Shown: positions 623-41,543 of the stretch, in pieces | How the letters are laid out: every line of letters begins with the position of its first letter | Numbering within the stretch: the stretch's first letter is position 1 | Source of the DNA: Halichondria panicea | Lineage: Eukaryota > Porifera > Demospongiae > Suberitida > Halichondriidae | DNA: 64,000 bases | NCBI RefSeq assembly: GCF_963675165.1 | Contig: NC_087386.1 | Location: 23,501 to 87,500 of the forward strand | Direction of reading: 5' to 3' | Made by a program: the position numbers and the translations under genes | The notes under the pieces: model-generated | Database searches by the model: none | What the model was told of the DNA's origin: nothing | The model's input: the letters and a program-made list of their open reading frames with translations, nothing else

Positions 623-1107
623 GGCCGGCTGTCCTAATGCACGTGCATGAAAGTATTACAATGATGATTTTGTGGGTACAGTGATTACAAGTGAAAGCAT
701 TGTTCCATTGTACACACGCACACACACGCTAATTAGTACAAGCTGAAGGTACTAGGTTAGTTAATGATTACTCATTATTTGTTACCAGATAGAGTTACTT
801 AGCACTACATTGGCAGTACAGGATTGTGTGTGTTCATATCAAGTGAATATTGCTACCCAGAGCTAGCTAGCTACAGTGTTGACTCACAAGGACCTAGTCT
901 CACAGCTCACCGTCTCTCTGGGTCCACTATATACAGTACTTGTCTTGAGTGCAGCCGGCCTGTGTCTGTGACTGTACTGTACTAGAGCTCGAGTGTGTTT
1001 ACAGTTTACACGGCCAGGGTACAAGGTGGTGTTAGCTACGCCCATCTCCGCTAATTAGTATGCAATATCAGCCTTTGAGCTACAGCTTTAGGGAAGAAAG
1101 TGTCAGA
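623..1107. other. Intergenic divergent spacer
   Basis: About 485 bases between the MOSC gene (minus) and the Rab gene (plus). I see no open frame with coding character here. A short CA run lies near 714-728. As both genes point away from it, it must hold both promoters, but I cannot name a core promoter element. Confidence 0.6.
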
Positions 1108-2265
1108 ATGGCCCTTCACGAAGTCAAGCTTTGTCTCCTCGGGGTGAGTGCCTGTGTGTGTGTGTGCTCAGTACTAAGCACTATCTAGTACCCCATTAGA
1201 TCATCCATTCATTGTGTAGGAAAGTGGTGTTGGCAAGACCTGCATTGTTAACAGATTTGTATCAGATCTATTCTCTGAACATGAAAGTTTAACTGTAGGG
1301 TAAGTTCATACATGCTATCACATAGTCTAGCATTATATAGTTACTAGCTAGCCTCCTATAAAGAAACTAGTCATGGTTGGATTGAGCTGTGACATTGTGT
1401 TCCACCCCCCCCACACACACACGTACACCAGAGCTGCCTTCACTACCAAGACAGTGCGTGTGGATGACAACTCTATCCTCTTCCAGATATGGGACACTGC
1501 AGGACAAGAGAAGGTGACTCATAACCTGGGCCACTAGTTTAGATGCTGGTGGCTTTAGCCTCTCAGGATGGTTTGTTTATGGGGAGTAAGTATGTTTTGT
1601 CATAACACTCTTTGTTTTAGTAGAGTCTGTCAACAAGTGACCTCCCACAGCTAATAACACCTCCCCCCCCCCCCACACACACACACACACGCTACTCACC
1701 CCCCCCCCACACACACACACACACCCCACACCCACCCACCCCCCACACACACACACACACCCACACACACACAGTATCGAGGGCTTGCTCCGATGTACTA
1801 CAGAGGATCATCAGCAGCTATTGTAGTGTATGACATCACTAGTGAGGTAAGAGCCCCTCCTGCACGAGATGGTGGTGGCCAGTGTGCCCCCCCCACACAC
1901 ACACACTATACACTGTACGCCCACACACACACACACAGAGGAGCTTCAATGAGATGCAGACATGGATTACTGAGCTGAGGCAGTTGGGACCTCAGAACCT
2001 GGTCCTGGCTATAGCAGGGAACAAGTTGGATCTAGAGTCATCACGACAAGTAAGCCAATGCTGTGAGAGTGGGCGTGTGTGTGATATATGTGTGTGTAGG
2101 TGTCCACAGCAACTGGAGAGACGTTTGCTAAGAATGCAAATGCTATTTTTATGGAGACGAGTGCTAAAGATGGTCATAACGTACAAGAACTGTTCAAGGA
2201 AATTGGTAAATTGGACTTTAATAGTATACTCTGCATACCTTACTCCCCACACACCCACCCACTCA

Positions 2266-2300
<35 letters not shown>

Positions 2301-2451
2301 CACCGCCCACCACACACACTCACTGCCCACCACACACACACACTGTGTAGCTGAGAGTCTGCCGCTGGATAAGATTGCACTGGAGAACAAATCTAGCACT
2401 TTAAAACTCTCTCGATCTTCTCAAAAGAAAGAGAACAATTGCACTTGCTAA
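1108..2451 (+). CDS. Rab GTPase, Rab22/Rab31-like
   Basis: Seven exons join in phase: 1108-1143, 1220-1299, 1432-1513, 1775-1846, 1939-2049, 2100-2205, 2351-2451, giving 195 residues, the usual Rab length. Start MALHEVKLCLLG matches the Rab22/31 start MAL-EL-KVCLLG. Visible G motifs are ESGVGKT (P-loop; the usual G-D-T-G-V-G-K is here G-E-S-G-V-G-K), WDTAGQEK (switch II; Rabs normally have QER), GNKLDL (NKxD) and ETSAKDG (SAK). Effector-region sequence LAPMYYRGSSAAIVVYDIT is characteristic of the Rab5/21/22 group. The protein ends Cys-Thr-Cys, a CXC signal for double geranylgeranylation. AATAAA overlaps the stop at about 2450. These Rabs act in early endosome and trans-Golgi traffic. Intron 4 contains (CA)n and C-rich tracts. 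Rab22 versus Rab31 cannot be decided from sequence alone. Confidence 0.92.
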
Positions 2452-2653
2452 TAAAATAGAGTTTTTTTTACTTCTGTTTATGTTATCCGTTATACAATCT
2501 CTTCACAGTAGAAGTTGTTGTGCATATTTTGTGGTTGGAATAACAATAACATGATACACATCTCTGTGAATGAAGACCCTTTCCAGAGGAACTGCTACTA
2601 ATAGTTATACTCTATAGCTGGCTACTATATCTGCGCGCGCTGAGGTGTACGGG

Positions 2654-5600
2654 ATGGCCACTGTGTGCAAGAAATGGGCGAGTGTGTTTGGAACCTTGCA
2701 GCCAGTGATAATAGGAATGATCCATGTGCAAGCTCTACCAGGTAAGCCATACTGGTACCTACTGCGCATGCGCTAAGCCCCCCCCCCCCCCCCCCCGTGT
2801 AGGGACCCCCCACAACTGTCTGCCCATGATGGAGATAGTGAGGAGAGCAGTAGAGGAAGCGAGGATATATCGAGACACTGGATTGGATGCTTTACTTGTA
2901 GAGAATATGCACGACACTCCGTACCTAAGGGGTGTGGGGTCAGAGGTCACTGCCGCCATGACGAGGGTGGCATGTGAAGTGAGAGCGGCCGTACCTCAAC
3001 TACCACTAGGAGTGCAAATACTGGCAGGTAACCCTAGCGATAAGAGCATCCGGTCATAACTTTGGTCCATTTTTAGAAGTTGGCATTTGTATGGTCTTAC
3101 GAGACCTTGTGTTTAGAGAGAGGCCTTTCTATTTTTTGACAAAAGGACAAAAGACCATGAGCTTAGAAAATAAGGCCGTTCCAAATTTGGGATTTCAGCA
3201 TACCATCTGAACGGGAGCTATCACCTCTATGTATGTATACCCCCCCCCCCACACATGAACCATTATGTCACAATGGTCCCCCCCCCCCCCATACACTATA
3301 CAATACACAGGTTGCAACAAGGAGGCCTTGTCAGTGGCCCTAGCCAGTGGTGGGAGCTTCATTCGTGCAGAATGCTTTGTCTACTCCCACGTGGCTGATG
3401 AAGGTTGGATGGACGCTTGTGCAGGGGAACTGCTCAGATATCGCAGAACTATAGGAGCTGAGGAGATCATGGTGCTAGCTGATATCAAGAAGAAACACTG
3501 GTAAGCTAGTGTAGTGAGTGGCTAGCTACTAGAGGGGCCATTATATTGAGTCCTTCAATATCAGTAGCCTGTGCAGTAGTTGTATTCTGTAGAGATGTGG
3601 AAATAGTGAGAAGTGCACAGAACATTCCATAGGTAGCTGTCAAAGTCATTTGGAAATTATACACAAAATCAATCGCTAAATAATAACATCATTTGACAGG
3701 TCAATATTATTATTATTATCAATGCCCAATAGTTAGCTCTTGGGGAACTAGTTGGTACATGATATTCACTGGGATTGGTTGTTATAATAGGTGTGGGAGC
3801 ATTTGATCACCCTCCTCCTGTGTATTGCATTATTTTACAGTGGGAAAACTTTGCTAGTATTCCATTTAAAGTTCTTGCAATCTTTATTTGGAGCATAAGA
3901 ATGATGTCCCCCGTACCTCTGTACCTCCATGCAACCCCTCTACGCCATTGTTTGCCAATTCAATAATTAATTATTCACGGCTAGTTTATATTAGTGATGA
4001 TGTGATGAGGTGATGGGTGTGTCTCCATTCTTTAGACAACATGGCGAGCAAAGAACCTGTTAGCAGTGAAGTAGCTGATACTACGTGTCACATCTGTTTA
4101 GAGCAGTATAAGCACCCAAAGCTGTTGCCATGTGGACACACGTTCTGTCTCCACTGTCTGGTTAAGATGGAGGAAGCCAACACAAATCCTGGAGCTAATA
4201 TCTGCTGTCCAGAGTGTCGAACTAATCACACTATTACGAATGGCCCTTCATCTTTGCTGACTGACTACACTATGCTATGGGAGGTACAGACGTTGGCCTG
4301 GCGTGCTGGGTTGGATGAGAGGCGCTCTGTGTGTGGGGGGTGTCCTGATGGTCGTGATTGCCTCTGTTTCTGTATTGACTGCGATGATTTTCTCTGCTCC
4401 TTCTGTGTACAAGCTCACAAGCGAATGAAAACTTTAGCCAAACACAAGTTGATTGATGTCAAAGACCTAGCTACCATCAAGCCTAAGCCAGAGCCTATAT
4501 TGTGCTCATCTCACTCGTCCCTACTAGTGAGCATGTACTGCTCTACTTGTAGTCTGCTCATCTGTACTGACTGTATTACTCGTCACTCCAGGCACACACT
4601 CCACACCCTCACTGCACACACACTGACATCCTTTGAACACAAACTGGATGATCTTATCCAAAATATTGACAAAGCTGTATCCAAAAGAGCTCAAAGGATT
4701 GAGGAAATCAACACCGCTCAAGAAACAATGGAAGAAAATCCAGTTAAATTGAAACAAGCTATCAATGAAATGGCAGACAAGTGCTTGTTAGCTATAGAGC
4801 AGCTGAGAGTCAACGCACACGCACAAGTCAACCAACAACTAATCAGCTTGAAGAAAAGTACTGAACAAAAACAGACCATTACTGATGAACTAACTACGCT
4901 CAAGTCTTGTATGCAGTTCGCACAGAAAACCCTTTCATGTAGCGAACCTGCTGCCAGAATAGCAATGGTTGCTAAGGCCACTAGTGTGTTGTCAGGGGTT
5001 AAAGTGACCTGTACTGAAGTGCCAGCAACCGTACCGCTGTTTATGAGTGTCAACAATCTCGAATCCGTGCTCAAGTCTAAAGAGCTGGTATCTGAATTCA
5101 ACTCATCCAGAATAGAGGTGACTGGTTGGACTAACTCTATCCTCAGAAAGCAGAAGGTAGTACAAGTAGCTATTCCAGTGGTGCCTCCTCCAAAGCCAGA
5201 GTTCAGAGTGGAGTATAGTAGCCATCGTCGAGAGCTTTCAGTGAAGGTCACAGTCGTGGACAATAACACCTGGAGGTTAGAGTTCACTCCGTGCTACATT
5301 GGATGCCATTATTTGAAGGTAAAGCTGTTTGATGAATGGTTGTGTGTTCCAACGTCACAGTCTAGGCTTTCTAAGCACATTAATATTGAAGGCAGTTTGA
5401 CAGAGGGTGACATTGTGCGACCTCTGACTGAAGATAACACTGGTGATCACAAAGTTGGAAGAATTGATAAACTAGCTATTGTTCCCAGTAACTCAAGGAG
5501 AACTCACTCTTACACGATGGATATTATATGGAATTATAATACAGACAATTCAGTTCTAGAAGAAAAGCATACATTTTCTTATTTAGTGCGTGTTGGTAGT

Positions 5601-6277
5601 TTTCCTTTTGAACTTGTCCTAGCTGCTAATACTCCATAGGTAATAACATGCTGTGCAACTAACTAACTCTAACCCTAACTGTACTGTACACACGGCTTTC
5701 TGTTATCTCATCTCAGGAACTCTTACAATCCTTTTCCTTTTGAACTTGCTTTGAATTAGTGTTTCTGTGTGTGTACTTTATATGATTGTATGACTGCATG
5801 TTGATGTGTTTGTGTGAACGGAATTCCTACCTACTAATGTGTACTTAGTGCAAATGTGGATGCATGTGTGTGGGGGGGTGGTTTATTCTGTTCTGAAGTG
5901 TTTGTGTACATAAGAGCAATGGATTCTTATTTCCCAGTTCTCATTCTGTGACTGGTGACCTGAGTATTGGAGAGACGGCTCAAGCTGCTCGATTCTTTGC
6001 TGCTGATGGTGTGATAGTCACTGGAGCATCTACTGCACAACCTGCCAACACTTGTGAACTAGACACTGTACGCACTTCCCTAGGGTCAGAGGTCAATGGC
6101 GGGCTACCTATACTCGTAGGGTCAGGGGTCACTGTAGAGAATCTGGACAAATACATGTGTCGTGTGAACGGACTGATTGTGGGGTCAGAGTTCAAGGAGG
6201 GGGGACTGTGGAGTAATGCCATTGATGTTGAACGAGTAAGGAAGTTCCTGAGAAGGAAACACGAACTATTGCCCTAA
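2654..6277 (+). CDS. BtpA-family TIM-barrel protein
   Basis: Four exons in phase (2654-2741, 2803-3027, 3311-3500, 5938-6277) encode 280 residues. The product starts MATVCKKWASVFGT and shows the BtpA/SgcQ family pattern: GMIHVQALPGTP near residue 24, then VENMHDTPY, GVQILAG, FIRAECFVYSHVADEG, MVLADIKKKHCSHS, GVIVTGASTA and PILVGSGVTVENL. Bacterial BtpA stabilises photosystem I; metazoan homologues (for example C. elegans F13E9.13) have no firmly known function. The barrel has phosphate-binding-like glycine loops, so a sugar or nucleotide substrate is possible but unproven. Intron 3 is 2.4 kb and houses a separate RING gene on the same strand. The join H-C across that intron (TG|T) restores the family motif, so the long intron is real. 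Confidence 0.88.
3050..3230. repeat. Interspersed repeat, family D copy 1
   Basis: Non-coding segment in BtpA intron 2. Its end (CAAATTTGGGATTTCAGCAT followed by ACCATCT) recurs near 23305-23335 in the ROR intron (CAAATTTGGGATTTGAGCAT followed by ACCATCT), and the 'cataacttt-g' and 'cagaaaatcataaa' style phrases recur near 33310-33480. These look like related dispersed copies; boundaries are approximate. Confidence 0.5.
4041..5639 (+). CDS. TRIM-like RING/B-box/coiled-coil protein, single exon, nested
   Basis: A single-exon open frame of 532 codons from ATG 4041 (an in-frame GTG at 4017 is not a normal eukaryotic start). RING finger of C3HC4 type: C16, C19, C31, H33, C36, C39, C56, C59, with LPCGHTFC. 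Two B-box-like zinc modules follow at about 95-135 (CGGCPDGRDCLCFCIDC) and 152-190 (CSSHSSLLVSMYCSTC). Residues about 200-290 are Glu/Lys/Gln-rich and likely coiled coil. The C-terminal part holds a filamin-like Ig stretch near 400-440 (WRLEFTPCYIGCHYLKVKL) and no NHL or SPRY signature. Such proteins are RING E3 ubiquitin ligases of the TRIM group (closest in plan to TRIM2/3/45/71 without the NHL propeller). It sits wholly inside intron 3 of the BtpA gene on the same strand, and lacks introns while neighbours have many, which suggests a retrocopy or invading gene. Confidence 0.85.
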   Translation: MASKEPVSSEVADTTCHICLEQYKHPKLLPCGHTFCLHCLVKMEEANTNPGANICCPECRTNHTITNGPSSLLTDYTMLWEVQTLAWRAGLDERRSVCGGCPDGRDCLCFCIDCDDFLCSFCVQAHKRMKTLAKHKLIDVKDLATIKPKPEPILCSSHSSLLVSMYCSTCSLLICTDCITRHSRHTLHTLTAHTLTSFEHKLDDLIQNIDKAVSKRAQRIEEINTAQETMEENPVKLKQAINEMADKCLLAIEQLRVNAHAQVNQQLISLKKSTEQKQTITDELTTLKSCMQFAQKTLSCSEPAARIAMVAKATSVLSGVKVTCTEVPATVPLFMSVNNLESVLKSKELVSEFNSSRIEVTGWTNSILRKQKVVQVAIPVVPPPKPEFRVEYSSHRRELSVKVTVVDNNTWRLEFTPCYIGCHYLKVKLFDEWLCVPTSQSRLSKHINIEGSLTEGDIVRPLTEDNTGDHKVGRIDKLAIVPSNSRRTHSYTMDIIWNYNTDNSVLEEKHTFSYLVRVGSFPFELVLAANTP

Positions 6278-21636: not shown

Positions 21637-24600
21637 CTAGTCGTCTTTTGTCATTTCTGTCTCGGGGTCAGAGTTCTCCTCAAGGAAAGCATCGCTGGAT
21701 ATGTCAGAATACACACTTTGTGCATCGTATTCGCTAGAAGTGCTGACTCGGCATTCCTCGAGGCATTGACTTAGCTCTTTAAAGGTTGGCCGTGATTGGT
21801 CGTCTTGTGCCCAACACTCGTTCATGATAGCGTAGATACGACCAGAGCAATCTGATGGTTTCTGTAACACCTTGCCGTGACGCACCCTCTCCATGACCTC
21901 TTCATTAGAGGTGCCATAATAAGGCTGCATTCCAAGTGTGAACACTTCCCACATGACCACTCCAAAGGACCACACGTCACCGGCAGTAGAGAACTTGCCA
22001 TATATGATAGCCTCAGGAGACATCCAGCGAATAGGTAGCACAGCTTGCCCCCTCACGCGATAGTAGTCCTTGCTGTAGAGGTTGTGGCTGAGTCCAAAGT
22101 CTCCTATCTTGACTAGAACTCTGGATGGTGTAGCACTGCAATCATCATCAGGGAGAGATGACACCAGGCAATTACGACATGCCAGATCACGATGCACATA
22201 GTTCATTACTGAGAGGTATTCCATTCCTTGAACTATTTGCTTGCAGATATCGGTGAGTTGTTCTTGATTGAGTGAGGCAGGATCATCAGACAGTGTAGAC
22301 TCAGTACGAGAGCGTGGGCGGTCCAGAGGGTTCATGTAGCGACGTTGTAGACTACTAGCATTCTCCCTCAGGAACTTAGCAAGGTCACCTTTATCCATAT
22401 ACTCAAACACCAGATAGTAGGGGGCCTGCGTCATGCTTACAGCTAGGATCTTGACTATGTTCTCGTGGTCAAATCCAAACATAAGCTTAGCTTCATTCAC
22501 GAAAGCTTCTATTCCATCGTTAGTATCTTCCTTGAGTGTCTTGACAGCCACGTGTGTGTCAGGCTCTGAGCTGCCTTCCATGCCTCGTAGCTTGCCCTTG
22601 AACACCATGCCAAAGAAACCTTGTCCTAGTTGCTTGACATACTCTATGTTGGCTTTGGGGACTTGTTTGAATGAAGCGATTGCAGTGGCCACTTTAGGAG
22701 GGAGCAGTTGAATACGTGGATATTGATTATTGTCTCTGAACTTGACATTCTTGACAGAATCGTTGCCAATGACATGCAGCTGAGGTGAACTGGCAGTGGT
22801 TTGTTTCTTGTGCTTGTACACCACAAACCCAACGACACCACTAACAGTAACACAGATAGCAATGACTACACAAATCCCTAACACTACTGGAGCCACAGCA
22901 CTAGCAGGATTGGATGATGAGGGGTCCTTGGTCTCAATACCTGCAGGGGAGAGATGGCAATGAGTGAGGTATAATACCGTATAGTGGGTAATTTTCGGGG
23001 GACAAAATATTCGTGGTTGAGCAGTATTTAGTCATTTCGTGGATATTATTTTCGTGGTTGCTGCTTGCACTGCAGGTAAAGGTAGGCAAGGTTGCTTCAT
23101 TCGTGGGTAAAATATTTGTGGTCAGACCGAATATTTTGTGATTTTTGTCCCACGAAAATTACTCTTTATACGGTACTTTGGTACATGATTTTCTGAAAGC
23201 TTAAAATGGCTCCTTGAAATTAAATGTCAATTTTTGGTCTGTTTTTGACATAATATACCATACACCATGGGTCTTTTACCAAAAATAAGAAATTATGACC
23301 CGTTTCAAATTTGGGATTTGAGCATACCATCTAAAAAAGCTCCTTCTAGTAGTAAGCTTTCAGAAAATCAGAAAATCCTTGACTTTGGACCACAGAGCCG
23401 AATCTAGTTACTCTAAATGCAGGGGCTCATGCAGTCTTGTTTGAAGCTTTATACACGTGTGTTAGATGCTATGCATGCACATATGTACCCTCACCAACAA
23501 TGGAGCATGATTCAACGAGACATAGCTCAACGAGGCCCTGGTTGTTGAAACACCACGGAGCTTTGGCCCACTGTCCTGGATTCCTGCATGTGCTACCAGC
23601 TCCCACTAGCTCTGGGTAGAGTGTGGCAGTGAAACTAGTGTTAGTCTCGCTCCAGTCCATACAAGGCAGGTTAGACACTGTGCGTGAGTGTGGGCCACTA
23701 TAGCTCTGGCCATAGTCACTGCTGTTGTAGCAACCTGCAAGGGGAGAATGGAATGAATGATGGCAAGTCACTTCTGTAGAAAGAAGTCAGCTAAAGTTGC
23801 GGCCTAGACTGACTGGCTGGTGGTGGCATATGTTGTGTGGTCAGCATTGATAAGGTTTGTGGTGGAGGGAATCACTTGAGTGCTATTGATGAGCCACCAC
23901 ACCACATCACCAACACCACCACTAATACACTAAATCACCAACAAGAATGTGCAGGCACTCTGGACTCACTGCTGACAGCTTGAGTGGTGATGATGGTGGG
24001 AGAGGGCATACACTGCTCACTAGATGAGAGACTGCAATCAGGGCCTAGTAGTTGATTAACACGATGAGTAGAGCTCCAACGTGATGTCAGCTCAGAGAGA
24101 ACCTTGACAGGACAAACTAGCCTCATCTCATCTCTCAGTGTGCAATGGTCTACACAAGAAGACAGAGGACTAGGAGAGACTGCATGGGGGGAGTACAGTG
24201 TGGTAGGGGACTAGGAGAGACTGCATGGGGGAGTACAGTGTGGTAGGGGACTAGGAGAGACTGGTGTGAGCTGGGGGGTGGGAAGCAGCCATGAGCTCAG
24301 AGGACCTCTCTATGGGCTCTAACCACAAAGACTTACAATAGCTAACCACAAGTAATTGAATATCAACAGACCTCCATCCTTGCAGAAGGGCAGTGATCCA
24401 TGACATATAAGGAGAGTGAGAGCATTCTGACAGGCAGGGCTCAGTTTATCCCCCTCTAGACTGTGATACAGGCCCACCATGCTCCCCTCTATATCACCCA
24501 GTGACACACTGCTCCAACCCTCACGATTCACGTGCACACTTCTCTCTCTGTAGCCGGACAGCGAGGAGCAGAACTGACCACCATACATCTCACAAGTATC

Positions 24601-27420: not shown

Positions 27421-28136
27421 CCCGTACAGTCTCTCTGGTTGGCTAGCACAGTCAGCCAGTGAGTCAGTCAATACAGAGAAAGCCTGAGCTGAGGTGTCTA
27501 TATAGGAAAATGTGCAGACCGCAGCATCTAATTATACGAAAAACAAGCTCCTGGCCACATAAAGAAATATTAAAAGCTGTACTCTACTGTACTGCTCTGA
27601 CTGTACTGCATGCATGTACTGTACAAAGTACAGTGTACACATGTACACGTACACAAGACCCTCATTATCTCTATAGCCCCTATAAACATTGTAGCCTCTG
27701 ATCTAACACTACACTTTAGCCGTCCTCTGGATTGATGTCTTCTGACCCCAAGAGAAAGCAAGCCAAGCCATACAGTATGAGCTAGCTCTCGTATTATGTG
27801 CTATATATCATCATGAGCCCTAATTATGGTCACACCATTCTGGTGTGTGTGATGCTGTCTAAGTGTCTAATGGGTTTGGGTATAAAGAAAGCCTCAGACA
27901 CGTAATTAGCCTCCACACAACACATCTATTGACCACCTAATATTATTAGAGTCCTGTGTACATGCGCAGGTGGTCCTCATGTCTCCAGTGACGTGACATG
28001 TGTGGAGGTTCTCGGCTTTATCCTGGACACACACATACACTTGTCCGCCCCCTCACCTCACACAACAAATGCCTCGGGAGGACGGAGGGAGCTAGTGTCC
28101 GCCCCCTCACCTCACACCCCGGGAGCACGGAGGGAG
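27421..28136. other. Divergent spacer ROR-like / E4-E2 gene
   Basis: About 716 bases between two divergent starts. Near 28045-28130 a ~48-base direct repeat occurs twice (GTCCGCCCCCTCACCTCACA ... GGGAG(GA/CA)CGGAGGGAG). This GC-rich duplicated segment just before the plus-strand start may be 5' UTR or promoter. No other gene seen. Confidence 0.55.
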
Positions 28137-31100
28137 ATGGCGCTCAGTTCCCACCAACTACCACTCAACAAAGGGGAGGGGACAAGACAAACATTTCAAG
28201 AGCTTTTATCGTCTTGTGCAGCTGCTGAGATTGTAAGTCTATTTATGTGTAACAGTTTTGGATATTTCTGGCTCAGGATGTGCTCGAGTATGCAGTTGGT
28301 TGCTATTCTCGTGCTTCCAGTCATCCTAGGCCATCATGGGATAATGAGGTATGGAGGGACATCTCCGCTGTTGCCATGGATACTACTGCACTGCTGACAC
28401 TACAGCAACTAGTGCAAGGTATTTTACTACACTCATGTGATAGGTTCATGACCTTCATGTGACGGGTTCATGACCTCTGTAGCTTCGTCCTCTCCTGGCT
28501 CTAATGATCTCTGGTCTGGTTTGTATGGAGGGAGAACTGTCAATGTGAGTCTCGTGTGTGTGTGTGTGCGTGCGTGCGTGTACACCCTGCCTCTTGTGTC
28601 CTCCCTGTACAGAGGGTGTTGAGTGGCTTCCTAGAGCTGCTCTCTGGTTGGTCGGAGGGTGGACTGGAGGTGACACCAAGCATGCTACACACTATTGCAG
28701 TACATGCACAGGCTGGACACAACAGACATGCTCTAGTACAACTGGTCAGTCCTTCCTAACCATGAAGCCACTTGCCTCTAATGTCATTATCAGTGCTCTC
28801 TCTATAGGTCAAAGGTGGCGGACAGTTACTCAGACAAGTCACTAGGTAAGCACACACACACACATACACACACAGCAGTGAGACCTTTCACCTCTTAGAT
28901 TGGACGAACTCCTTGTGAAGGAATCACGAACCCTGAGTGGCCTCGATCGTCTCTTCTCAGAGGTACGCCCACACCACACCACACACACCACACACACACA
29001 CACACACGCCCACACAGCCGCTAGTGGCGGAATTGTTGGCTGGGGAGTTGTTGGATGAGATTCAATTCAAATCAGGGGCAGAGTTTGAGAGCAGTTCTTT
29101 GTTTGGTGATCTCCTCGGTGTAACCATGGTGATAGATAAGCTACACACACAGTTACTAGTGGATAAGAAATATAGTTGCTTCCTGGAACTACGTAACTAT
29201 CCCACCGTCAATACTGGTGACATCATTTCCTGTCATGTAAGTATGAACCCTGGCCCCTAGCGCACATTAACCCTCTTCCTACTATATAGAGCCAGCTACA
29301 AGATGCTCTGCATAGAATACACACAACCATCCAATCTGCTCTCCTTAAGATGCTCAAATCACCTCACAAGAATATGTAAGATCACCCTCACACCTCACAC
29401 ACCACCCTCACACACCTCACACACCACCCTTATAGAGTGCTTGGGTGGCTGGCGGCAGTTGTACATCTCAACATTCCTAGGGTGGGTCCAAGGTTCAGAG
29501 GTCAACAGGGTGGTGGGATCCAAGGTGCCTGCTCTGATGGTAAGACACACTACATGTATATAGTGGTGTCATGATGACACTGCATGACACACTACATGTA
29601 TATAGTGGTGTCATGATGACACTGCATGGCACACTACATGTATATAGTGGTGTCATGATGACACTGCATGACACACTGCAGGTTGGATGGTGAACTTTTG
29701 CTCCGTGTTGCTGGAGTTGTGTCGACCATTTTTCAGTAGCAGTAGCTCTGGATCCAAGTTGTCCCTCATCCACTCCTCTTATCCCAGCTCTCCGTTGTGC
29801 AGACTGCAGCTCAGTCAAGAGCCTTGCTTGGCAGGGGGACATATTGGTGAGACTAATGCATGCTGGGACATGTCTGGTCGGTATGCTACAGTGGATTGCA
29901 GTGCCGCAAAACAGATAATAATTTCTAAGCCTAAACTAGGGGCTTTTCAATATTTCAGTTTGACCCTAAATTATAAATAAAAGAGCAAGCTTACGTAGGC
30001 CAGAATGATGATATACAATGTACATGCATGGCAACTTTCTTTTGCAAAGTCTTACGTATGTGTATGTATATATGTGATGACTAAGACTTAACTACCGTAT
30101 AGCGGGTTATTTTTGTGGGCAACTGACCTCCACGAAATTTAACGTAGGCGTGGCTTACCGGAACGTACGAACGCAGTGCAGGAAATGAACTTTTCACTCA
30201 CGAAAACCACCGTTTTCGAGTTGGACGAATTTTTTACCCCACAAAAATCACCATACAGTATCTAATAGTGGCTCAGTCTGTGCTGCAATCCACAACGCAA
30301 TAATTATGTTCACATACCGTATTTACTTGATTAAACGCCCTCCTTGATCGCCCATGGTAAAAGCTCTGATAAATGCCCATCTTAAATAATCGCCCATGTA
30401 TGGGCGTGGCACTGTGGGTGGAGCTGAACTAGCACGTGGAACCAGTTGCAAGCGTGGCAGCATAGACTATAGATACTTTTTATGGTGACAGAGAGAGAGA
30501 GAGATACCAACACAGAGGGAGAAACACCACTTCTATGACTTAAGATTTAAGCTGAGAGCTGTGGCAGCAGCGAAAAAGAGCATAATAACTGCTGATGAGC
30601 AAGAGTTTGGAGTAGACATGACCAATAAACGCCCATTTCGAATAAGCGCCAATCTCGTTTAAACGCCCCCTTTACAGACTTTTAAACGCCCAGGCGTTTA
30701 ATCAAGTACTAATAAATACGGTAATTATATTCCATAGTTATTCTGTAATCTATGACCACTCAACCATGCAGCCTTTTAGCCACTGTGTGTCTAAGCTGTG
30801 CAGTCAACCATGACCACTAATTACATTACTAAAATAGACACAACCCAGTGTGTTCATACACTAATTTTAATTTGGCAGAATTTAAAGTTGAAATTCAGTC
30901 AACCATGACCGGCCACTAGTAGGGAGAATATACAGTGTGTGGTCATGGTTGAACTGCCAACCAACCTGAAATCCTGTGTACATGTACATTATCTGAAACA
31001 CTAGTAGCTCTTTATTGGTTGGGAAAGCAATGTTGTGGGCAGACTAATGATACACCATAACCAGCTTGCATGTTGTGGTGTGTGTGTGTGGTAATACAAT

Positions 31101-31179
31101 CTCTCCACTAACACACACATGTATAGAGCTTCTTTATTGCTCCTATTTGAGTGATCTCATTATGTATCCTGTCCACACG

Positions 31180-31219
<40 letters not shown>

Positions 31220-31438
31220 GGAGGCCATTATGTGGAGGGATATTTGTCAGGAGGTGGCTTCAAGTTTGTAACTGAGTTATTTTTCCTGACACAAAGGGCT
31301 CTACATGTTGGACTATTACCTGCAGTCAACCAGTTCACTCAAACTTCCTCTCAACTTGCCAAACAATTGCTGGCTACTAACATGTCCTCTCCCCATCTCA
31401 AGCAGCTCAACTCAGTGAGTAGACCCACCCACTCCACA

Positions 31439-31498
<60 letters not shown>

Positions 31499-34400
31499 AC
31501 TCCCACCCCCACACACAGTTGCACATGCTGGCTGGGACCTGCTGCTTGCTGGACCCTCTGCTTGTACAGTATTGCTCAGAGTTCTACATCACCCAGGCAG
31601 TGTGGCTTACTAAGCTACTAGAGGACCATTGTATAGAGAATGACCAGAAGAGCATATTGTCCACTCTACCAGAGCATGCAGTCAAGGACATGGCTCTGTG
31701 GCTCCAGTTCATTGTGCTCAGTAGACCCACCTTGTTGCAGGGACTGCCAGTGAGTGTGTCCCTGATACTAACCACTCACTCTCTCTCTCTCTGCCTTATA
31801 GTTGACACCATTTATAGACTGTTGTGTGTGTCTATTGGAGCGCCCTGACCTCCTACCTAGTCCATTGGCTCAGAGTAGACTAGTGGGAGTACTTTTAGCC
31901 TGTCTCAACAGTGATAGGAGGGCACCACAGTAAGCACCACAAGCATACTCTGTATCCCATATTATACTGTACCCTTCCTCTGTAGGAGACTGCTAGGCTC
32001 TGAAGGTTGGGGGTAAGTACACACACACCTCACACACACACACTCAGCCAACACCCACTCCACCCACACACCCACTAGTGGTATCCTTGCTGAATTGTCT
32101 GTACTGGTGCAAGCTAGTCCATCAGTGAGAGACAAGTTAGGCCCCGCTCTCCTCCACACCTACGCTGCAGTCAGTGTTGTGGAAGGACTAGATGTGGACA
32201 AGGAGAGCTTTGACAAGTTTGCCACTAGGTACCCCTCCTCTGTTAACCACACCCATTAACCACACCCCTATCAGGTACGAGGTGGCTCAGCTGCTACTAA
32301 GACTCTGGGCACGTGATGATGCTCGTGCTTCCATTCTAACACAATGCTCTTCCAAGAAGTTTACGGTACTGTGACCTTTGTGTGTGACTAAACCTTGACC
32401 CAAGCTCTTACAGGCATTTCTTGGTGCAGTGTTAGACACACTCTTGTATCAGCTTAGTGACGCTCTCTCCCGTCTGAGCAATGTGCATGGGTGTGAGGCT
32501 GCCAAAGAAGGTAAGCCCACACACGCGCGCACACACACACACGCACACACACGCCCACTCACTGATAGGATGGAGTGCTTTGTCTGAGAGGGAACGCCGT
32601 GAGAAAGAAGTTTTCTTAACAGGAGAGCAACGTGCAGCGAAAGGATTCATGACACAAGCTAGTCTTCAACTAGACCTCCTGGCTCTAATGACACTCAGTG
32701 ATGTTGTGGTAGAGTGTTTGTTAGACCCCCAGCTGGTCAGAAGGACCGCCCACACAGTAAGTCAATGTGAGGGGTGTGTATACCGCTCACACAGTGAGTC
32801 ATTGTGTGAGGTGTGTATACCGCCCACACTGTGATTCATTGTGTGATGTGTGTATACCGCCCACACAGTGAGTCATTGTGTGAGGTGTGTATACCGCCCA
32901 CACTGTGATTCATTGTGTGAGGTGTGTATACCGCCCACACAGTGAGTCATTGTGTGATGTGTGTATACTGCCCACACTGTGAGTTCACGTGTGCACCCTC
33001 TTGTGTAGGTGTTGGGGCTACTGGAGACATTGTGTGGACCAGCATCCTCAGAGCTCAAAGTGGCGGACATGGAGAGCTACTCATTCAAACCCAAGGCTCT
33101 TGTGTGTCAACTATCCTCTGTCCTAGTACGAGGCTGGCAGATTGCAAGGGGTCGGAGTTCACTCTTCCTACAGAGCATAGTAGAGTATCCGGAGTACAGT
33201 GCTTCTACCATGAGCAAGTGTGTCGTTATTCTCTCCACTGAGCAAGTGGCCTTATCCACAGAAATGGCTCAACTATCTCAGCAGGTATAGCCTGGTCATA
33301 CCGGGGAGTTGAAAATCTTTCAACAGCCATAACTTTAGTACCATTGATCCAATATTATTTATTTCCTGAATATATAAATTTAATTATGACACCATTTACT
33401 ACACCATTTGAAAGGTCTCCTTCTAATTGTCAGAAAATCATAAAAATAATTGTTGGAAGTTGGATCCTAAGTTATGCTAGCTGAGAGATTCCCCAAACCA
33501 TTGATTAAATGGGAGGGGGGTTAGCTTTGTGTTATTTTCTAGAATTCAGCTGTTTTGGCAGCTATCTTTGAGGGCCTGTAACTGGTTGTTCCTGTAACTT
33601 GTGCTGTCTGATGGAGGTATGCGTGGCCTTAAAGCTGGGTCAACTCAGCCTACCACGAACTAACCCTAACCCTTAATTACACCACCCCCCCACACACACG
33701 CGCGTAGGTGGAGTCCCTTCAGTCTTCTGTGGAATCAGCCTCTTTCATTGACGGGGCTGCCCCTTCCAATCATGACTGGCAGAATATTGCTGACTCATCA
33801 ATAATTGACTCGAATGGTTTGTGTGAACTGTACGTGAGTGCATTGGAAGAGGTCAAGTATGAAAGTGCCGAGCTGGTCGACTCTCATCTACTAGCTGATA
33901 AACTGCCGCCGACGCTTGACCCGAGGTCACCAAAGGTCAGAGCTATACTCCGTGATATGAAACAACTACAAGAGTCCCTCCCACTTCATCCTGACTCAGC
34001 AATATTTGTTAGACAAGTGAGTGGTATGTTGTTAGACTTGTCATGTCCCCACACCCCACTCACCCACACCCACACACACAGGATGAAGATCGTATGGACC
34101 TAGTGCGTGTGCTTATTACTGGCCCTACAGACACTCCATACAGTCGAGGTTGCTTTGTGTTTGATATCCTCTACCCCAGCTCTTACCCCACACACCCTCC
34201 TCTGGTCTTCCTCACTACCACTGGAGGGGGTACTATTAGGTGGGCTCATTAGTGGACACTGCTCTCATTATGTCCCGGTGCTTGCTTGTGTGTTAGGTTC
34301 AACCCTAACCTATATGCTGATGGGAAGGTGTGTCTAAGTCTTCTGGGTACATGGCATGGAGGAGATGCTTCTGAGAAGTGGGACCCCCTAAGATCTAACC

Positions 34401-34965
34401 TACTCCAGGTACCCCCCCCCCCCACACACACACACACACACATCACAATAGGTACTGCTCTCCATCCAAGGCATGATTCTCATCTCAGACCCCATGTTTA
34501 ATGAGCCTGGCTATGAGACTATTAGAGGCAGTCAGGAGGGACATGTAAGTACTGCCTGGTTGGTTGGTGTGTGTTGATTAGCTCTGTGTGTGTGTGTGTA
34601 GGATCGGAGCAGACTCTACAATGCTGACCTTCGTGTGCACACAGTGCGTTATGCTATGCTAGAGCAGTTGAGACATCCTCCCAAAGGTAACCACCCACCC
34701 CCACCACTCTCCTAGTCCCCCGCCCCCACCACTCTCCTAGTCACCCGCCCCCAACACTCTCCCAGTCACCCACCCCCACCTGACCCTTGTCCCCACCCGA
34801 CCTTTGCCCTCTACAGGTTTTGAAGATGTGATTCAAGTGCACTTTGCCTTGCAGCAGGAGCCACTATTAAAGCAGCTATCTGATTGGCTGAACCATTGCA
34901 TATCTCCAGAGCAGCAAAGGCGACTCAGGAAGGCAGTGGATGAACTGAGGACACTGTTAGACTAA
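28137..34965 (+). CDS. Ufd2/UBE4 core fused to BIRC6-like E2 (UBC) domain
   Basis: Twenty-five exons join in phase without a stop: 28137-28232, 28277-28418, 28483-28544, 28613-28744, 28808-28845, 28899-28962, 29018-29236, 29290-29375, 29436-29539, 29682-29846, 31218-31414, 31519-31749, 31802-31929, 31986-32012, 32079-32228, 32275-32365, 32414-32510, 32569-32756, 33009-33284, 33708-34016, 34082-34239, 34297-34408, 34452-34544, 34602-34686, 34817-34965; 1132 residues. Residues about 270-830 match the Ufd2P core: [67 protein letters not shown]. The C-terminal 240 residues are a UBC domain of BIRC6 type: [30 protein letters not shown] (active Cys in KVC), FNEPGYE. E4 enzymes elongate ubiquitin chains through a C-terminal U-box; no U-box is visible here. 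Alternative: reading through the exon-19 donor gives a TAG at 33288, so two adjacent genes are possible. The start is tentative. Confidence 0.8.
29570..29670. repeat. Tandem triplication in E4-E2 intron
   Basis: Three copies of a ~48-base unit (CACACTACATGTATATAGTG then GTGTCATGATGACACTGCATG). Confidence 0.85.
30093..30260. mobile_element. MITE-like element, family A copy 2
   Basis: 168 bases; left end TACCGTATAGCGGGTTATTT, right end AAATCACCATACAGTA preceded by CCCCAC. Same end sequence and size class as 22975-23175. Lies in the long intron of the E4-E2 gene. Confidence 0.7.
30315..30723. mobile_element. MITE-like element, family B
   Basis: 409 bases bounded by TACCGTATTTACTTGATTAA(ACGCC) and (GGCG)TTTAATCAAGTACTAATAAATACGGTA, an inverted pair with a small insertion on the right. 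Interior carries further diverged copies of the AAACGCCC motif in both orientations and no open frame. It lies 54 bases after family A copy 2 in the same intron. Confidence 0.75.
30750..30990. mobile_element. Repeat family C, copy 1
   Basis: Contains CAACCATGACCACTAATTAC and, at its right end, CCAACCAACCTGAAATCCTG(TGTACA). The same elements occur at 35191-35371. Boundaries on the left are unclear. Confidence 0.55.
31440..31498. repeat. (CA)n microsatellite
   Basis: About 28 uninterrupted CA repeats inside an intron of the E4-E2 gene; a second CA run lies at 31180-31216 immediately before an acceptor. Confidence 0.95.
32757..33005. repeat. Minisatellite in E4-E2 intron 18
   Basis: About six copies of a 41-42 base unit (GTGAGTCATTGTGTGAGGTG then TGTATACCGCCCACACA). 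Each unit starts with GTGAGT- or GTAAGT-like donor sequence, so it probably arose from the exon-18 donor (ACA|GTAAGTCAATGTGAGGGGTG). Confidence 0.85.
33300..33485. repeat. Interspersed repeat, family D copy 3
   Basis: AT-rich non-coding segment in the intron between the Ufd2-core exon and the E2-side exons. Shares CATAACTTT and GTCAGAAAATCATAAA-type phrases with 3050-3230 and 23195-23400. Homology weaker than between the other two. Confidence 0.35.
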
Positions 34966-35413
34966 CAATTGCTCGAAACTCTCATTTATATACAGTTTAG
35001 TTTTGTATGACTCACAGTATTGAATTTTTCATACATGTATACGTAGTTTTTGTACGTAATTTTTTGTGCAAAACTTACCGTTTTGAAGTTGTATAATTGT
35101 TATACTCAACAAAGTTAATTATAATCCAACAATTAGCAATAATTAATTTTTTATGAAAGTATAATCACAGATCTAGAATAAAATAATTTTACAGATGATT
35201 TCAGGTTGGTTGGTAGCCTCCTTCACGAGGCCTCAACAACACTATATATATATAGAAGCCCTAGTGCACTCAACCATGACCACACACACTGTACGCTTCT
35301 TCACTAATGTAATTAGTGGTCATGATTGACTGAATGTCAACTTTCGCCAACCAAACTGAAATCCTCTGTACACAGTCATAATACATGCACACACAATAAT
35401 ATTATATACACAA
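34966..35413. other. Convergent spacer E4-E2 / RABGGTA
   Basis: About 450 AT-rich bases, including a MITE described separately at 35191-35371. No gene seen. Confidence 0.65.
35191..35371. mobile_element. MITE-like element, family C copy 2
   Basis: About 181 bases with imperfect inverted ends: left TACAGATGATTTCAGGTTGG(TTGG), right CCAACCAAACTGAAATCCTC(TGTA). The interior has an inner inverted pair CAACCATGACCA / TGGTCATGATTG. It lies in the spacer between two 3' ends. Confidence 0.7.
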
Positions 35414-37154
35414 CTAAAGAGTGAGTTCTACAAGTCCAGGAACTATTGCTCTGAGCATATCCTGCAGAAGGGGTTTTCCCTGGGAGCAGAGGGGATTCCC
35501 CTGCAAACACAGCACTTGGAGTGTCAGGAGACTCTTCAATGCTTCCTTTATAGCCTCCAGCTCTGCAATATCTGGGAGGTCTGGTTGAGGATAGAAACAA
35601 GTCTATTATACTTATGTACACAAAAAAGGTGGATACAATTGTTAGTGAGGGAGAGGTGTTGTAAAGGAGCCTGGATATGAGGTAGGGCTACAAGATGGTT
35701 GTCATCTAGTATCAGTCTGGTAAGTGCAGGACAGATCAAGGTAGGAGGTAGACACCTCAGAGCATTGCCACTCAGATCCAGCCTTTCATAGGGAAGTAAG
35801 TACTGTGTGTGCTCCAACCGAGTCAGCCCCTAACGAACACGAGTACATTAGTGACACACCCACACACACACACCCACTCACCATGCCTGAAAGGTCCAGT
35901 GCTGTGAGATGAGTGGAGACTCTCAGAGCTTGTCTCAACATGAACCTGCTCACTGCATGACATATACACACTGCTGTCAGAAAATGGACAATTTTAGTCA
36001 GAAATTAATCACTGATCTAAGCACACCATGTAGCAGCTAAATAATTACAATTCAGAAGTCGGACATTCACAACCCAAGTTATGGACCATCAAAGTTGCTT
36101 CTAAAACTGCCCCATTTAGACATGCAGTGTGTGTACTCACTGAGGTCAGTGTAGTAGGATTTCCTGAGTGGGTCCACTTGACACAGCCGAGAGGTCATGT
36201 GTTGGATTAGGGGGGAATATTTGACAGGATCCAGAGATTGCATGAGGAGCACTGTGGTCAACAAGCACCCTACACACACAGAGTGTAGTGAAGGGTGAGG
36301 GGGTACACACACACACACACAGAGTGTAGTGAGGTGGTGAGGGGGCACACACACACACAGAGTGTAGTGAGGGGGTGAGGGAGTACACACACACACATAG
36401 AGTGTAGTGAGGGGGTGAGGGGGCACACACACACACACACACACACAGAGTGTAGTGAAGGGTGAGGGGGTGAGGTGGTACACACACACACAGAGTGTAG
36501 TGAAGGGTGGGTGAGGGGGTGAGGGGGTGAGGGGGCACACACACACACACACAGAGTGTAGTGAGGTGGTGAGGGGGTACACACGCACACACACACACAC
36601 AGAGTGTAGTGAAGGGTGAGGGGGTGAGGGGGCACACACACACACACACACACACACAGAGTGTAGTGAAGGGTGAGGGGGTGAGGGGGCACACACACAC
36701 AGAGTGTAGTGAGGGGGTGAGGGGGCACACACACACACACACAGAGTGTAGTGAAGGGTGAGGGGGTGAGGGGGTACACACACACACACACACACAGAGT
36801 GTAGTGAAGGGTGAGGGGATGAGGTGGTACACACACGCACACACACACACACACACAGAGTGTAGTGAGGTGGTGAGGTGGTGAGGGGGTACACACACAC
36901 ACACACACACACACAGAGTGTAGTGAGGTGGTGAGGGGGTGAGGGGGTACACACGCACACACGCACACAGTGTAGTGAAGGGTGAGGGGTGAGGGGGTAC
37001 ACACACACATACGCACACACACAGAGTGTAGTGAGGTGGTGAGGGGGTGAGGGGGTACACACACACACACACACACACACAGTGTAGTGAGGGGGTGAGG
37101 GGGTACACACACACACACACACAGAGTGTAGTGAGGGGGTGAGGTGGTGAGGGG

Positions 37155-37193
<39 letters not shown>

Positions 37194-37419
37194 GTAGTGA
37201 GGGGGTGAGGTGGTGAGGGGGTACACACACACACACACACAGAGTGTAGTGAAGGGTGAGGGGGTACACACGCACACACACACACAGAGTGTAGTGAGGG
37301 GTGAGGGGGTACACACACACACACGCACACACACAGAGTATAGTGAAGGGTGAGGGGGTGAGGGGGTACACACACACACACACACACACAGTGTAGTGAG
37401 GGGGTGAGGTGGTGAGGGG

Positions 37420-37480
<61 letters not shown>

Positions 37481-37561
37481 GTAGTGTGGGAGTGAGGGGG
37501 TGAGGGGGTACACACACACACACACACAGAGTGTAGTGAGGGGGTGAGGGGGTGAGGGGGT

Positions 37562-37592
<31 letters not shown>

Positions 37593-38115
37593 GTAGTGAG
37601 GGGGTGAGGTGGTGAGGGGGTACACACACACACACACACACAGAGTGTAGTGAGGGGGTGAGGGGGTACACACACACACGCGCACAGAGTGTAGTGAGGG
37701 GGTGAGGTGGTGAGGGGGTACACACACACACACACAGAGTGTAGTGAGGGGGCACACACACACACACGCACAGAGTGTAGTGAGGGGGTGAGGTGGTGAG
37801 GGGGTACACACACACACACAGAGTGTAGTGAGGGGTGAGGGGGTGAGGGGGTACACACACACACACACACACAGTGTAGTGAGGGAGTGAGGTGGTGAGG
37901 GGGTACACACACACACACACAGAGTGTAGTGAGGGGGTGAGGTGGTGAGGGGGTACACACACACACACGCACAGAGTGTAGTGAGGGGGTGAGGTGGTGA
38001 GGGGGTACACACACACACACACACACACACAGAGTGTAGTGAGGGGTGAGGTGGTGAGGGGGTACACACACACACACACACACACAGTGTAGTGAGGGGG
38101 TGAGGTGGTGAGGGG

Positions 38116-38154
<39 letters not shown>

Positions 38155-38334
38155 GTAGTGAGGGGGTGAGGTGGTGAGGGGGTACACACACACACACACA
38201 CACACAGAGTGTAGTGAGGGGTGAGGGGGTACACACACACACACACAGAGTGTAGTGAGGGGGTGAGGTGGTGAGGAGGTACACACACACACACACACAC
38301 ACACAGTGTAGTGAGGTGGTGAGGGGGTGAGGGG

Positions 38335-38373
<39 letters not shown>

Positions 38374-38737
38374 GTAGTGAGGTGGTGAGGTGGTGAGGGG
38401 GTACACACACACACAGAGTGTAGTAAGGTGGTGAGGGGGTACACACACACACACACAGAGTGTAGTGAGGGGGTGAGGTGGTGAGGGGGTACACACACAC
38501 ACAGAGTGTAGTGAGGGGGTGAGGGGGTACACACACACACACACACACAGAGTGTAGTGAGGTGGTGAGGGGGTGAGGGGGTACACACACACACACACAC
38601 AGAGTGTAGTGAAGGGTGAGGGGATTAGGGGGTACACACACACACACACACAGAGTGTAGTGAGGGGGTGAGGTGGTGAGGGGGTACACACACACACATA
38701 CACACAGAGTGTAGTGAGGGGGTGAGGTGGTGAGGGG

Positions 38738-38772
<35 letters not shown>

Positions 38773-41543
38773 GTAGTGAGGGGGTGAGGGGGTACACACA
38801 CACACACACAGAGTGTAGTGAGGGGTGAGGGGATGAGGGGGTACACACACGCACACACACAGAGTGTAGTGAGGGGGTGAGGTGGTGAGGGGGTACACAC
38901 ACACACACACACAGAGTGTAGTGAGGGGTGAGGGGGTGAGGGGGTACACACACACACAGAGTGTAGTGAGGGGTGAGGGGATGAGAGGGTACACACACAC
39001 AGAGTGTAGTGAGGGGGTGAGGTGGTGAGGGGGTACACACACGCACACACACAGAGTGTAGTGAGGGGGTGAGGTGGTGAGGGGGTACACACACGCACAC
39101 ACACAGAGTGTAGTGAGGGGGTGAGGTGGTGAGGGGGTACACACACACACACACAGAGTGTAGTGAGGGGGTGAGGGGGTACACACACACACACACAGAG
39201 TGTAGTGAGGGGTGAGGGGATGAGGGGGTACACACACACACACACACAGAGTGTAGTGAGGGGTGAGGTGGTGAGGGGGTACACACACACACAGAGTGTA
39301 GTGAGGGGGTGAGGTGGTGAGGGGGTACACACACACACAGAGTGTAGTGAGGGGGTGAGGTGGTGAGGGGGTACACACACACACACACAGAGTGTAGTGA
39401 GGGGGTGAGGTGGTGAGGGGGTACACACACACACAGAGTGTAGTGAGGGGTGAGGGGGTGAGGTGGTGAGGGGGTACACACACACACACACACACAAACA
39501 CAGAGTGTAGTAAGGGGATGAGGGGGTTAGTTAGTGCTCACATTTGTTGGATGGCTCTTCTTCCAATAGTTGCTGACAACTTTCCAGTTGAGACGCCAGT
39601 AGAGAGGGTGTGGCTTGAGTATGTGTCCATGGTAACAGCCCGTCCCCACGCACCCAATACACAGCCTCACCTACACACACACACACACACACACAATGTA
39701 GTGAGGGGTGAGGTGGACACTCACACACAATGTAGTGAGGGGTGAGGTGGACACCCACACACAATGTAGTGAGGGGTGAGGTGGACACTCACACACAATG
39801 TAGTGAGGGGTAAGGTGGACACTCACACACAATGTAGTGAGGGGTGAGGTGGAAACCCACACACAATGTAGTGAGGGGTGAGGTGGACACACACACAATG
39901 TAGTGAGGGGTGAGGTGAACACCCACACCCACACACACACACACACACACAATGTAGTGAGGGGTGAGGTGGACACTCACACACAATGTAGTGAGGGGTG
40001 AGGTGGACACCCACACACAATGTAGTGAGGGGTGAGGTGGACACACACACACAATGTAGTGAGGGGTGAGGTGGACACACACACACAATGTAGTGAGGGG
40101 TGAGGTGGACACCCACACACAACACCAGCTTACTGGGGGAGAGGGAGATGTTCTGTTGATCAAAAGAGATGTTGATTGTACTTGGCAGTGTAGGCAGTGT
40201 GGTCTGATAGAGTGTTGTAGGCCATTCCCCCTCACACACAATCTCACACACAATCTCCCCATCCATAGTGATACACAGTCTCTGGTGGACCTGAGTGGGC
40301 AGTGTGGAGGTGGATAGTGTGAGTGGTGCTCTCACATTGAGGGGTTGGTTGAAGGATATGACCAGCTTTGGTTGGGAGGATACTTGCAGGTATACCATAT
40401 CCACAGAGTCTAGACACCTCACTACAAACAAGGTGGGGGGTCAATATGTATAGCAGGGTGGGGGGCCATGACTTACCCTCCCCCAATAACCAGCGATGAT
40501 AGAACCATGCACTCTGGTCATCAGGATCAGTGAAGAATGCATTCTGAGCCAGCTCATGTTCTGTAGAGTGAGGAGGGGCCAATACACACACACACGCACA
40601 CGCCCACACACACCCACCCACCCCCACTAGCAGTCCCACCTTTAGCCAGTGCATCACCAGACACCAGTCCACCATCATCAGAGGGACTGCCACTAGAAGG
40701 ATGGACTAAGGGTAGGAGCTGACTACGATAGTGCCATGCTGAATAGTTGGAGAAGTTGGATGCTATCTTGTCATAGGTAAAGGACAACTCTTGATTGACA
40801 GACACACAATGAGACTGCTGTATCACAAAGCGTCGATGGTCCCAACAATGAACTGTATTATAGGAGAAGATAAATATGTTTTTGTGTGTGCATGTGCTTT
40901 GTGTGTGCATGTGCTCACAGTTTCTCTCATCATAGTTAAGTAGCTTATCACACAAGCCCTTCTCTCTGACCCAGTCTGCTTGTGGACAGTGTAGTAGTAT
41001 CCATTGTCTAGACAACCACACGCAGTAAGCCTTGGGGTTCACACGGAGACAACTCTCCAACAAATTCAACTCTTTGCAACACAAGAGAGAAAACTCCTCA
41101 TCACTCCTGTACAGGGAATACGGTCACTGAGGGCACACCCACACCACGCCCACACACACATGTTGGCCTGTCTCTCCACGAAGATCTCCCTCCTATAGTT
41201 CCAGAGTGTGGCTATCTCCGGGTTAACACAAAGCACTTCCCTCGTTAGTGATAGGCACTCATCGTCAAGGCAACCAGACTCTCGCTAAAAAGGAACTACA
41301 CGTGTTTGACCACACCCACATATTGACCACACCTACCTTATTGAATATTTGTGCCATAACTGTTTTATACGCACTGGCTTTGTCATCTCTTTCCTTCTTT
41401 CTTGCCCTATCTTGCTCTTCGCTGGAGCGCACTTTGACCCTGCCATGCTGTAAGTACATGTACATGATATATGATCTGAATAGGTATCAGTTAAAGCATA
41501 GATTGAGTATATGGTTAAAGTACATACACCTAGTACCTACCAT
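35414..41543 (-). CDS. RABGGTA: Rab geranylgeranyltransferase subunit alpha
   Basis: Twelve minus-strand exons in phase: 41543-41541 (coding part), 41447-41337, 41284-41160, 41106-40919, 40852-40640, 40560-40477, 40421-40134, 39670-39542, 36269-36141, 35970-35882, 35829-35637, 35580-35414; 572 residues (human 567). It starts M|HGRVKVRSSEEQ (human MHGRLKVKTSEEQ). Prenyltransferase alpha repeats follow: ESCLRVNPKAYCVW, YDERNFHCWDHRRFV, NFSNYSAWHYRSQLLP and AQNAFFTDPDDQSAWFYHRW. An Ig-like insert spans exon 7, then LESCQQLLEEEPSNKWCLLT, and C-terminal leucine-rich repeats ending LQVLCLQGNPLCSQG. With the beta subunit and REP it attaches geranylgeranyl groups to Rab C-termini. Intron 8 (36270-39541) is 3.3 kb of minisatellite. 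The initiator codon sits alone at an exon end (ATG|GTAGGT); an alternative start MYMYLQHGR in exon 2 is possible. Confidence 0.93.
36275..39520. repeat. 3.2-kb minisatellite in RABGGTA intron 8
   Basis: Roughly 60-70 units, each made of (CA)n of variable length followed by GAGTGTAGTGAGGGGGTGAG(GTGGTGAGGGGGTA). Variation is in the CA length, the number of GAGGGGGT/GAGGTGGT submotifs and rare C(A>G) changes. The minus strand lacks stops in all three frames, giving open frames of 1140, 1115 and 776 codons of low-complexity CVCVPPHH-type sequence; these are not genes. Confidence 0.97.
39675..40120. repeat. Second minisatellite, RABGGTA intron 7
   Basis: About 13 copies of a ~34-base unit (ACACACAATGTAGTGAGGGG then TGAGGTGGACACCC). 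It is clearly related to the 3.2-kb array on the other side of exon 8 (AGTGTAGTGAGGGG core), so the two arrays flank a 129-base exon. Confidence 0.93.

Follow-up and report, generated by a model that had tools for sequence, protein, structure and literature searches.

The analysed window comprises 64,000 nucleotides (positions 23501-87500 of contig C10) of a compact genome of 131 Mb in 39 contigs. Its plus strand carries, between positions 28137 and 34965, a gene model of 25 exons separated by GT..AG introns throughout, which on rebuilding base by base joined in phase to a coding sequence of 3399 nt. The product has a length of 1132 amino acids followed by a TAA stop codon, exactly as given in the preliminary description of this locus (25 exons in phase, 3399 bases, 1133 codons including the stop). 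The features referred to below are the following:

28137..34965, plus strand: whole gene model (25 exons, 3399-nt coding sequence, 1132 amino acids and TAA)
28137..28962, plus strand: exons 1-6 (28137-28232, 28277-28418, 28483-28544, 28613-28744, 28808-28845, 28899-28962), residues 1-178, N-terminal part, matching no Pfam family
29018..33284, plus strand: exons 7-19, residues 179-831, carrying the Ufd2P core (residues 230-834)
33285..33707, plus strand: intron 19, 423 bp, donor CAG/GTATAG, acceptor GCGCGTAG
33302..33581, no strand assigned: stretch of intron 19 (bases 18-297 of 423) matching a dispersed multi-copy repeat family
33611..33616, plus strand: ATGGAG with a GT after it, which under a rival reading could be the mini-exon that opens a separate E2 gene
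33708..34016, plus strand: exon 20 (residues 832-934), encoding a linker and the BIRC6-like lead ahead of the E2
34082..34965, plus strand: exons 21-25 (34082-34239, 34297-34408, 34452-34544, 34602-34686, 34817-34965), residues 935-1132, BIRC6-type E2 and C-terminal tail
34331..34333, plus strand: codon for Cys999, predicted to be the active cysteine, inside a 13-residue stretch at 34322-34360

The introns have a median length of 59 bp, and only three are longer than 150 bp: introns 10 (1371 bp), 19 (423 bp), and 18 (252 bp). In intron 18 (window 32757-33008), a short unit around TGTGTATACCGCCCACAC was seen by eye to recur in several near-copies. A first, untrained gene-finder chain was over-split, with 51 exons. 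A gene finder trained on the 25 exons recovered the same 25 at intron penalties of 10 and 12, 24 of them together with 4 others at a penalty of 8, and 20 of them among 43 predicted exons at a penalty of 5; since the training set consisted of these very exons, the agreement shows self-consistency and is not an independent test. Judged by its sequence, the gene model is real and intact, and its domain order is new to us.

Elsewhere in the window, a fragment of a Ras-family GTPase (1882-2448, plus strand, E 1.2e-6) and a TRIM-like open frame with a RING (E 6e-9) and a B-box (E 2.3e-6; 4017-5636, plus strand) were detected. A 419-codon open frame on the minus strand (21640-22896) contains a whole, intron-free kinase domain (PK_Tyr_Ser-Thr, E 2.4e-91). 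The 1140-codon mechanical ORF at 36079-39501 (minus strand) lies in a stretch of strong GC and AT skew that opens with CA-rich repeats, and is probably not a gene. Between the contig end and the first position of the window lie 23.5 kb, but the idea of a subtelomeric location was dropped, as the first 20 kb of C10 contain no run of at least three CCCTAA units on the one strand searched.

Pfam analysis of the protein identified a Ufd2P core at residues 230-834, which covers positions 19-626 of the 628-position profile (E 2.6e-80, 271.1 bits against a cut-off of 20.4), and an E2 domain (UQ_con) at residues 925-1043 (profile positions 12-116 of 140, E 8e-20), bearing out the earlier claims of a Ufd2P core in mid-protein and of a C-terminal E2 with its active cysteine, predicted to be Cys999. 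Residues 1-273, searched alone, matched no Pfam family, and no BIR domain was found by Pfam in the whole protein at E values up to 1. Among solved structures, the core matched yeast Ufd2 (E about 5e-18), and the C-terminal part was most similar to the E2 of BIRC6 (241.8 bits, E 1.2e-70; phmmer), followed by UBE2O (161.4 bits) and UBE2Z (116.7 bits). Cys999 and the GKVCLS around it occur unchanged in human BIRC6 and in the BIRC6-type E2 encoded elsewhere in the same genome. The assignment of the E2 to the BIRC6 type, with a helical-looking lead, is upheld by the best match; the lead itself begins earlier than proposed, as the BIRC6-like part starts at residue 906 according to phmmer, and perhaps near residue 865 by eye, upstream of the previously quoted RDMKQLQ.

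A U-box, as claimed earlier, is lacking. With the three profiles named in the preliminary description (Ufd2P_core, U-box, and UQ_con), the first and the last were found in the protein and no U-box was found at E values up to 1, the stop codon following the E2. A search of the genome for the U-box family yielded 10 matches, none of them on contig C10. When the genome's own two U-boxes were compared by tblastn with positions 28000-36500, the best matches had E values of 0.016 and 0.15, both on exon 21 of the E2. A U-box exon in 33290-33700, which the preliminary description had named as an outcome that would overturn its reading, was looked for with no convincing result, the best match inside the gap between the two halves (33374-33421, partly within the repeat) having an E value of 1.3. 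A missed U-box is accordingly unsupported by any convincing match in gene or gap in the Pfam, genome family, and tblastn searches.

The same genome contains separate relatives of both halves. Matches to the Ufd2P core and the U-box occur together on contigs C3 and C6, where models were built that both end in a U-box and look, by known features, UBE4B-like (C3) and UBE4A-like (C6); in the C6 model, core and U-box were identified by Pfam, with the U-box (719-789) lying 20 residues past the core. A partial UBE4A-like copy, in which one exon (NLSKIKKGEDMIESEEY) occurs twice together with a U-box exon, lies at C6:1940500-1950400 (about C6:1.943-1.948 Mb), approximately 2.3 Mb from the fuller gene, and looks like a degraded duplicate. 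A BIRC6-type E2 that is 73-74% identical to the human BIRC6 E2 is encoded on contig C15, where it is preceded on its own strand, at distances of about 22 and 34 kb, by weak BIR matches (E 1e-4 and 4e-4); BIR matches in the genome number 6, on C15, C16, and C17. The Pfam BIRC6 family PF12356 had no match in the genome, a result that is uninformative because the controls were empty as well. Contig C11 has a match to what is presumably a UBE2Z-like gene, and the family of the E1 catalytic cysteine matched at two loci, on C12 and C7. Since the genome also has U-box-bearing UBE4-type genes on C3 and C6 and a BIRC6-type gene on C15, the fusion is an extra gene, and the possibility that it serves as the sole UBE4 or the sole BIRC6 is ruled out. 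A set of two UBE4-type genes together with BIRC6 agrees with the genome being that of an animal.

Both halves are strongly diverged from these paralogs, as one old unit could be. The E2 of the fusion is 52-55% identical to the human BIRC6 E2 and 51-53% to the genome's own BIRC6-type E2; it is less alike than the human and own BIRC6 are to each other, and so split off earlier or evolved faster. A recent copy of the 3' end of the animal's own BIRC6 gene is unsupported, at an E2 identity of only 51-53% and with just one of the five introns in the E2 part (LLQ/V) coinciding with an intron of the partial BIRC6 model. In the core, 114 of 456 aligned columns are identical with the UBE4A-like model (25.0%) and 100 of 453 with the UBE4B-like model (22.1%), compared with 121 of 400 (30.2%) between the two models themselves, all these values being rough because the models are approximate. 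Only 42 of the 117 columns identical in both UBE4 models are kept in the core, which would fit a fused but inactive enzyme, that is, a gene in decay or with a regulatory role, in which the E4 or the E2 part has lost its function. We regard such an enzyme as very improbable, given a frame that is open across 1132 codons, a Ufd2P core covered almost end to end, and the invariance of the cysteine and its surroundings with human BIRC6 and the animal's own.

Whether both halves form one protein, as the preliminary description claimed, depends on intron 19. About 280 of its 423 bp consist of the dispersed repeat, so that 17 + 126 bp remain outside it; 188 matches were counted for this query, with 40 of 778 candidates scored. 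The repeat is related to a tandem unit of 347 bp on contig C11, which occurs there in 7.7 copies with 97% matches (C11:93000-97000, positions 911-3546). The donor of intron 19 is the weakest of 24 by a leave-one-out matrix of the gene's own donors (score -0.2, with 61% of GTs equal or better) and the third weakest of 24 by a second matrix built from the 33 donors of the two UBE4 models (score 3.0, top 17%). A G at +5 is often missing (from 6 of 24 donors in the fusion gene and 13 of 33 in the UBE4 models), so that this donor is usable but unremarkable. The acceptor scores 6.4 and belongs to the top 2.4% of AGs. Downstream of it, the joined frame was the only one that was open and had a positive codon score in each of the three stretches of exon 20 tested; for residues 832-864 the score is 3.1 in the joined frame versus -2.3 and -15.3 in the others. 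Between 33582 and 33707 the codon score is negative in all three frames.

If intron 19 is left unspliced, an in-frame TAG is reached at 33288-33290. The locus could in that case harbor two neighboring genes, a U-box-less E4-type gene ending at this TAG, whose product would be a non-catalytic binder of substrates or chains, and a small gene for a BIRC6-type E2 that begins with the ATG at 33611, whose product would act alone or together with the E4 half. This arrangement, which we consider unlikely, would agree with the weak donor at 33285 and with an ATTAAA at 33504; the gap also contains a TATAAA at 33373, and an AATAAA lies at 35177, past the fusion's own stop. The ATGGAG/GTATGC at 33611 fits exon 20 in phase and has a good donor score of 4.7, but comparable starts (donor score of at least 4) were present in 24% of 1000 shuffled sequences and in 24.5% of 1321 stretches of 423 bases from the genome, and a mini-exon expected by chance at this frequency is no evidence for a second gene. 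A C at position -3 makes a poor start context, and the ATG at 33611 has such a C. Terminator and promoter alike would need to be situated largely within the dispersed repeat, and two incomplete ubiquitin genes would have become adjacent by chance. A simple gene finder scored two chains (178.6 + 56.1 = 234.6) slightly above one chain (229.7), which slightly lowers the odds for one gene; as this comparison carries no cost for an additional gene end and start, it does not decide between one gene and two.

Inheritance of intron 19 from a UBE4 gene is unsupported, its position not being shared with the two UBE4 models built here. Continuity of a helix across the join appeared good by eye, but among 7 shifts the real join ranked 4th, 3rd, and 5th at 100, 102.9, and 98 degrees, respectively. 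These ranks favor neither reading. The unshared intron position counts against one gene, as do the weak donor, the two-chain score, and the ATTAAA and TATAAA in the gap. In favor of one gene count the lack of a U-box in the gap, the repeat that fills it, coding that begins at the acceptor of exon 20, and the strength of this acceptor. In addition, each half lacks what the other supplies, and two incomplete halves of a matching pathway lying head to tail are more easily explained as one gene. With sequence signals pointing both ways, we consider a single fused gene probable, and the claim that both halves form one protein stands as the better reading, tempered by the donor, the possible start in the gap, and the score of 234.6 versus 229.7. 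Both forms, the E4 core alone and the hybrid, might also be made if intron 19 were alternatively spliced or offered a choice of poly(A) sites. The weak donor with an in-frame stop three bases on and the ATTAAA within the intron would be compatible with this, but a weak donor alone is insufficient to show an alternative product, and we regard the coexistence of both forms as quite improbable.

Returning to the fused reading, the protein is most likely a hybrid of an E2 and an E4, both of kinds already known, and it is fairly likely that one gene encodes all 1132 residues of it, with a core devoid of a U-box and a BIRC6-type E2 instead. Ufd2-type enzymes rely on a U-box to borrow a charged E2. 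Yeast Ufd2 consists of an armadillo-like trunk and an E2-binding U-box, with N-terminal loops that bind K29-linked chains, and Ufd2 without its U-box did not restore growth of ufd2-deletion yeast on oleic acid or at acid pH (PMC5303827); the UFD-2 of worms prefers unfolded segments and has a U-box described as flexible (PMC5797217); and BIRC6 has a flexible UBC after an armadillo scaffold, acts as both E2 and E3, and has been found together with UBA6, an E1 (PMC10827748). By analogy, an E1 would charge Cys999 of the hybrid directly with ubiquitin, the Ufd2-type core would bind a substrate that is ubiquitylated or unfolded, in the manner of Ufd2/UFD-2, and this client, held by the core, would receive ubiquitin in cis from the tethered E2. 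The linker, the BIRC6-type lead, and the catalytic E2 (residues about 865-1132) would occupy the place of the U-box, which would be unneeded because there would be no separate E2 to recruit; BIRC6 already is E2 and E3 in one. We infer the single transcript, the choice of substrate, the E1 partner, the activity, and every functional step, and the earlier term "self-contained chain-elongating enzyme" is likewise a deduction from the parts.

The order of a Ufd2P core followed by an E2 was not described in the titles and abstract openings listed from the searched literature, which came mostly from outside subscription journals, nor was this architecture reported in the available portions of PMC11354881, PMC6052599, and PMC3087547. 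Pattern searches for relatives gave 4 and 67 matches in viral contigs and 108 and 40 in genome contigs, none of which was confirmed; these collections comprise viruses, bacteria, and archaea, and the absence thus says little about animals. A survey of animal U-box ligases reports UBE4A as well as UBE4B for most animals, among them sponges (PMC3087547). Such a survey does not capture an E4 that has no U-box. Our tentative proposal is that the gene could represent an old E4 lineage of animals, the third, whose U-box gave way to a BIRC6-type E2 and which was kept in related animals and missed by U-box inventories. With the same reserve, its self-sufficient E2/E4 might extend chains on ubiquitylated or unfolded clients without recruiting an E2. 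A natural swap of the U-box for an E2 would offer a test of whether the core alone selects substrates and of whether chain extension needs only a charged E2 held nearby. If fused, the protein would be a second kind of scaffold with a built-in E2, beside the BIRC6 and UBE2O scaffolds.

Compared with Ufd2, UBE4A, and UBE4B, the fusion has the Ufd2P core over nearly the whole profile (19-626 of 628), but it lacks the U-box and carries an E2 domain after the core, where the animal's own UBE4A-like model has its U-box. UBE2Z has a related E2 subtype (117 bits) that is more distant, and UBE2Z is not known to have an E4 core. UBE2O, an E3-independent E2, likewise carries a related E2 subtype (161 bits) on a large protein, but the E2 of the fusion scores 80 bits lower to UBE2O than to BIRC6, and UBE2O is not known to have a Ufd2 core. 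BIRC6 (BRUCE/Apollon) differs from the fusion in size (about 4,860-4,900 versus 1132 amino acids), and the fusion has no BIR by Pfam and a Ufd2 core as its scaffold. The C-terminal E2 of the fusion is nevertheless of the same subtype, including the lead, and is placed on a helical-repeat scaffold, as described for BIRC6 (PMC10827748). In this respect the fusion resembles a miniature BIRC6.
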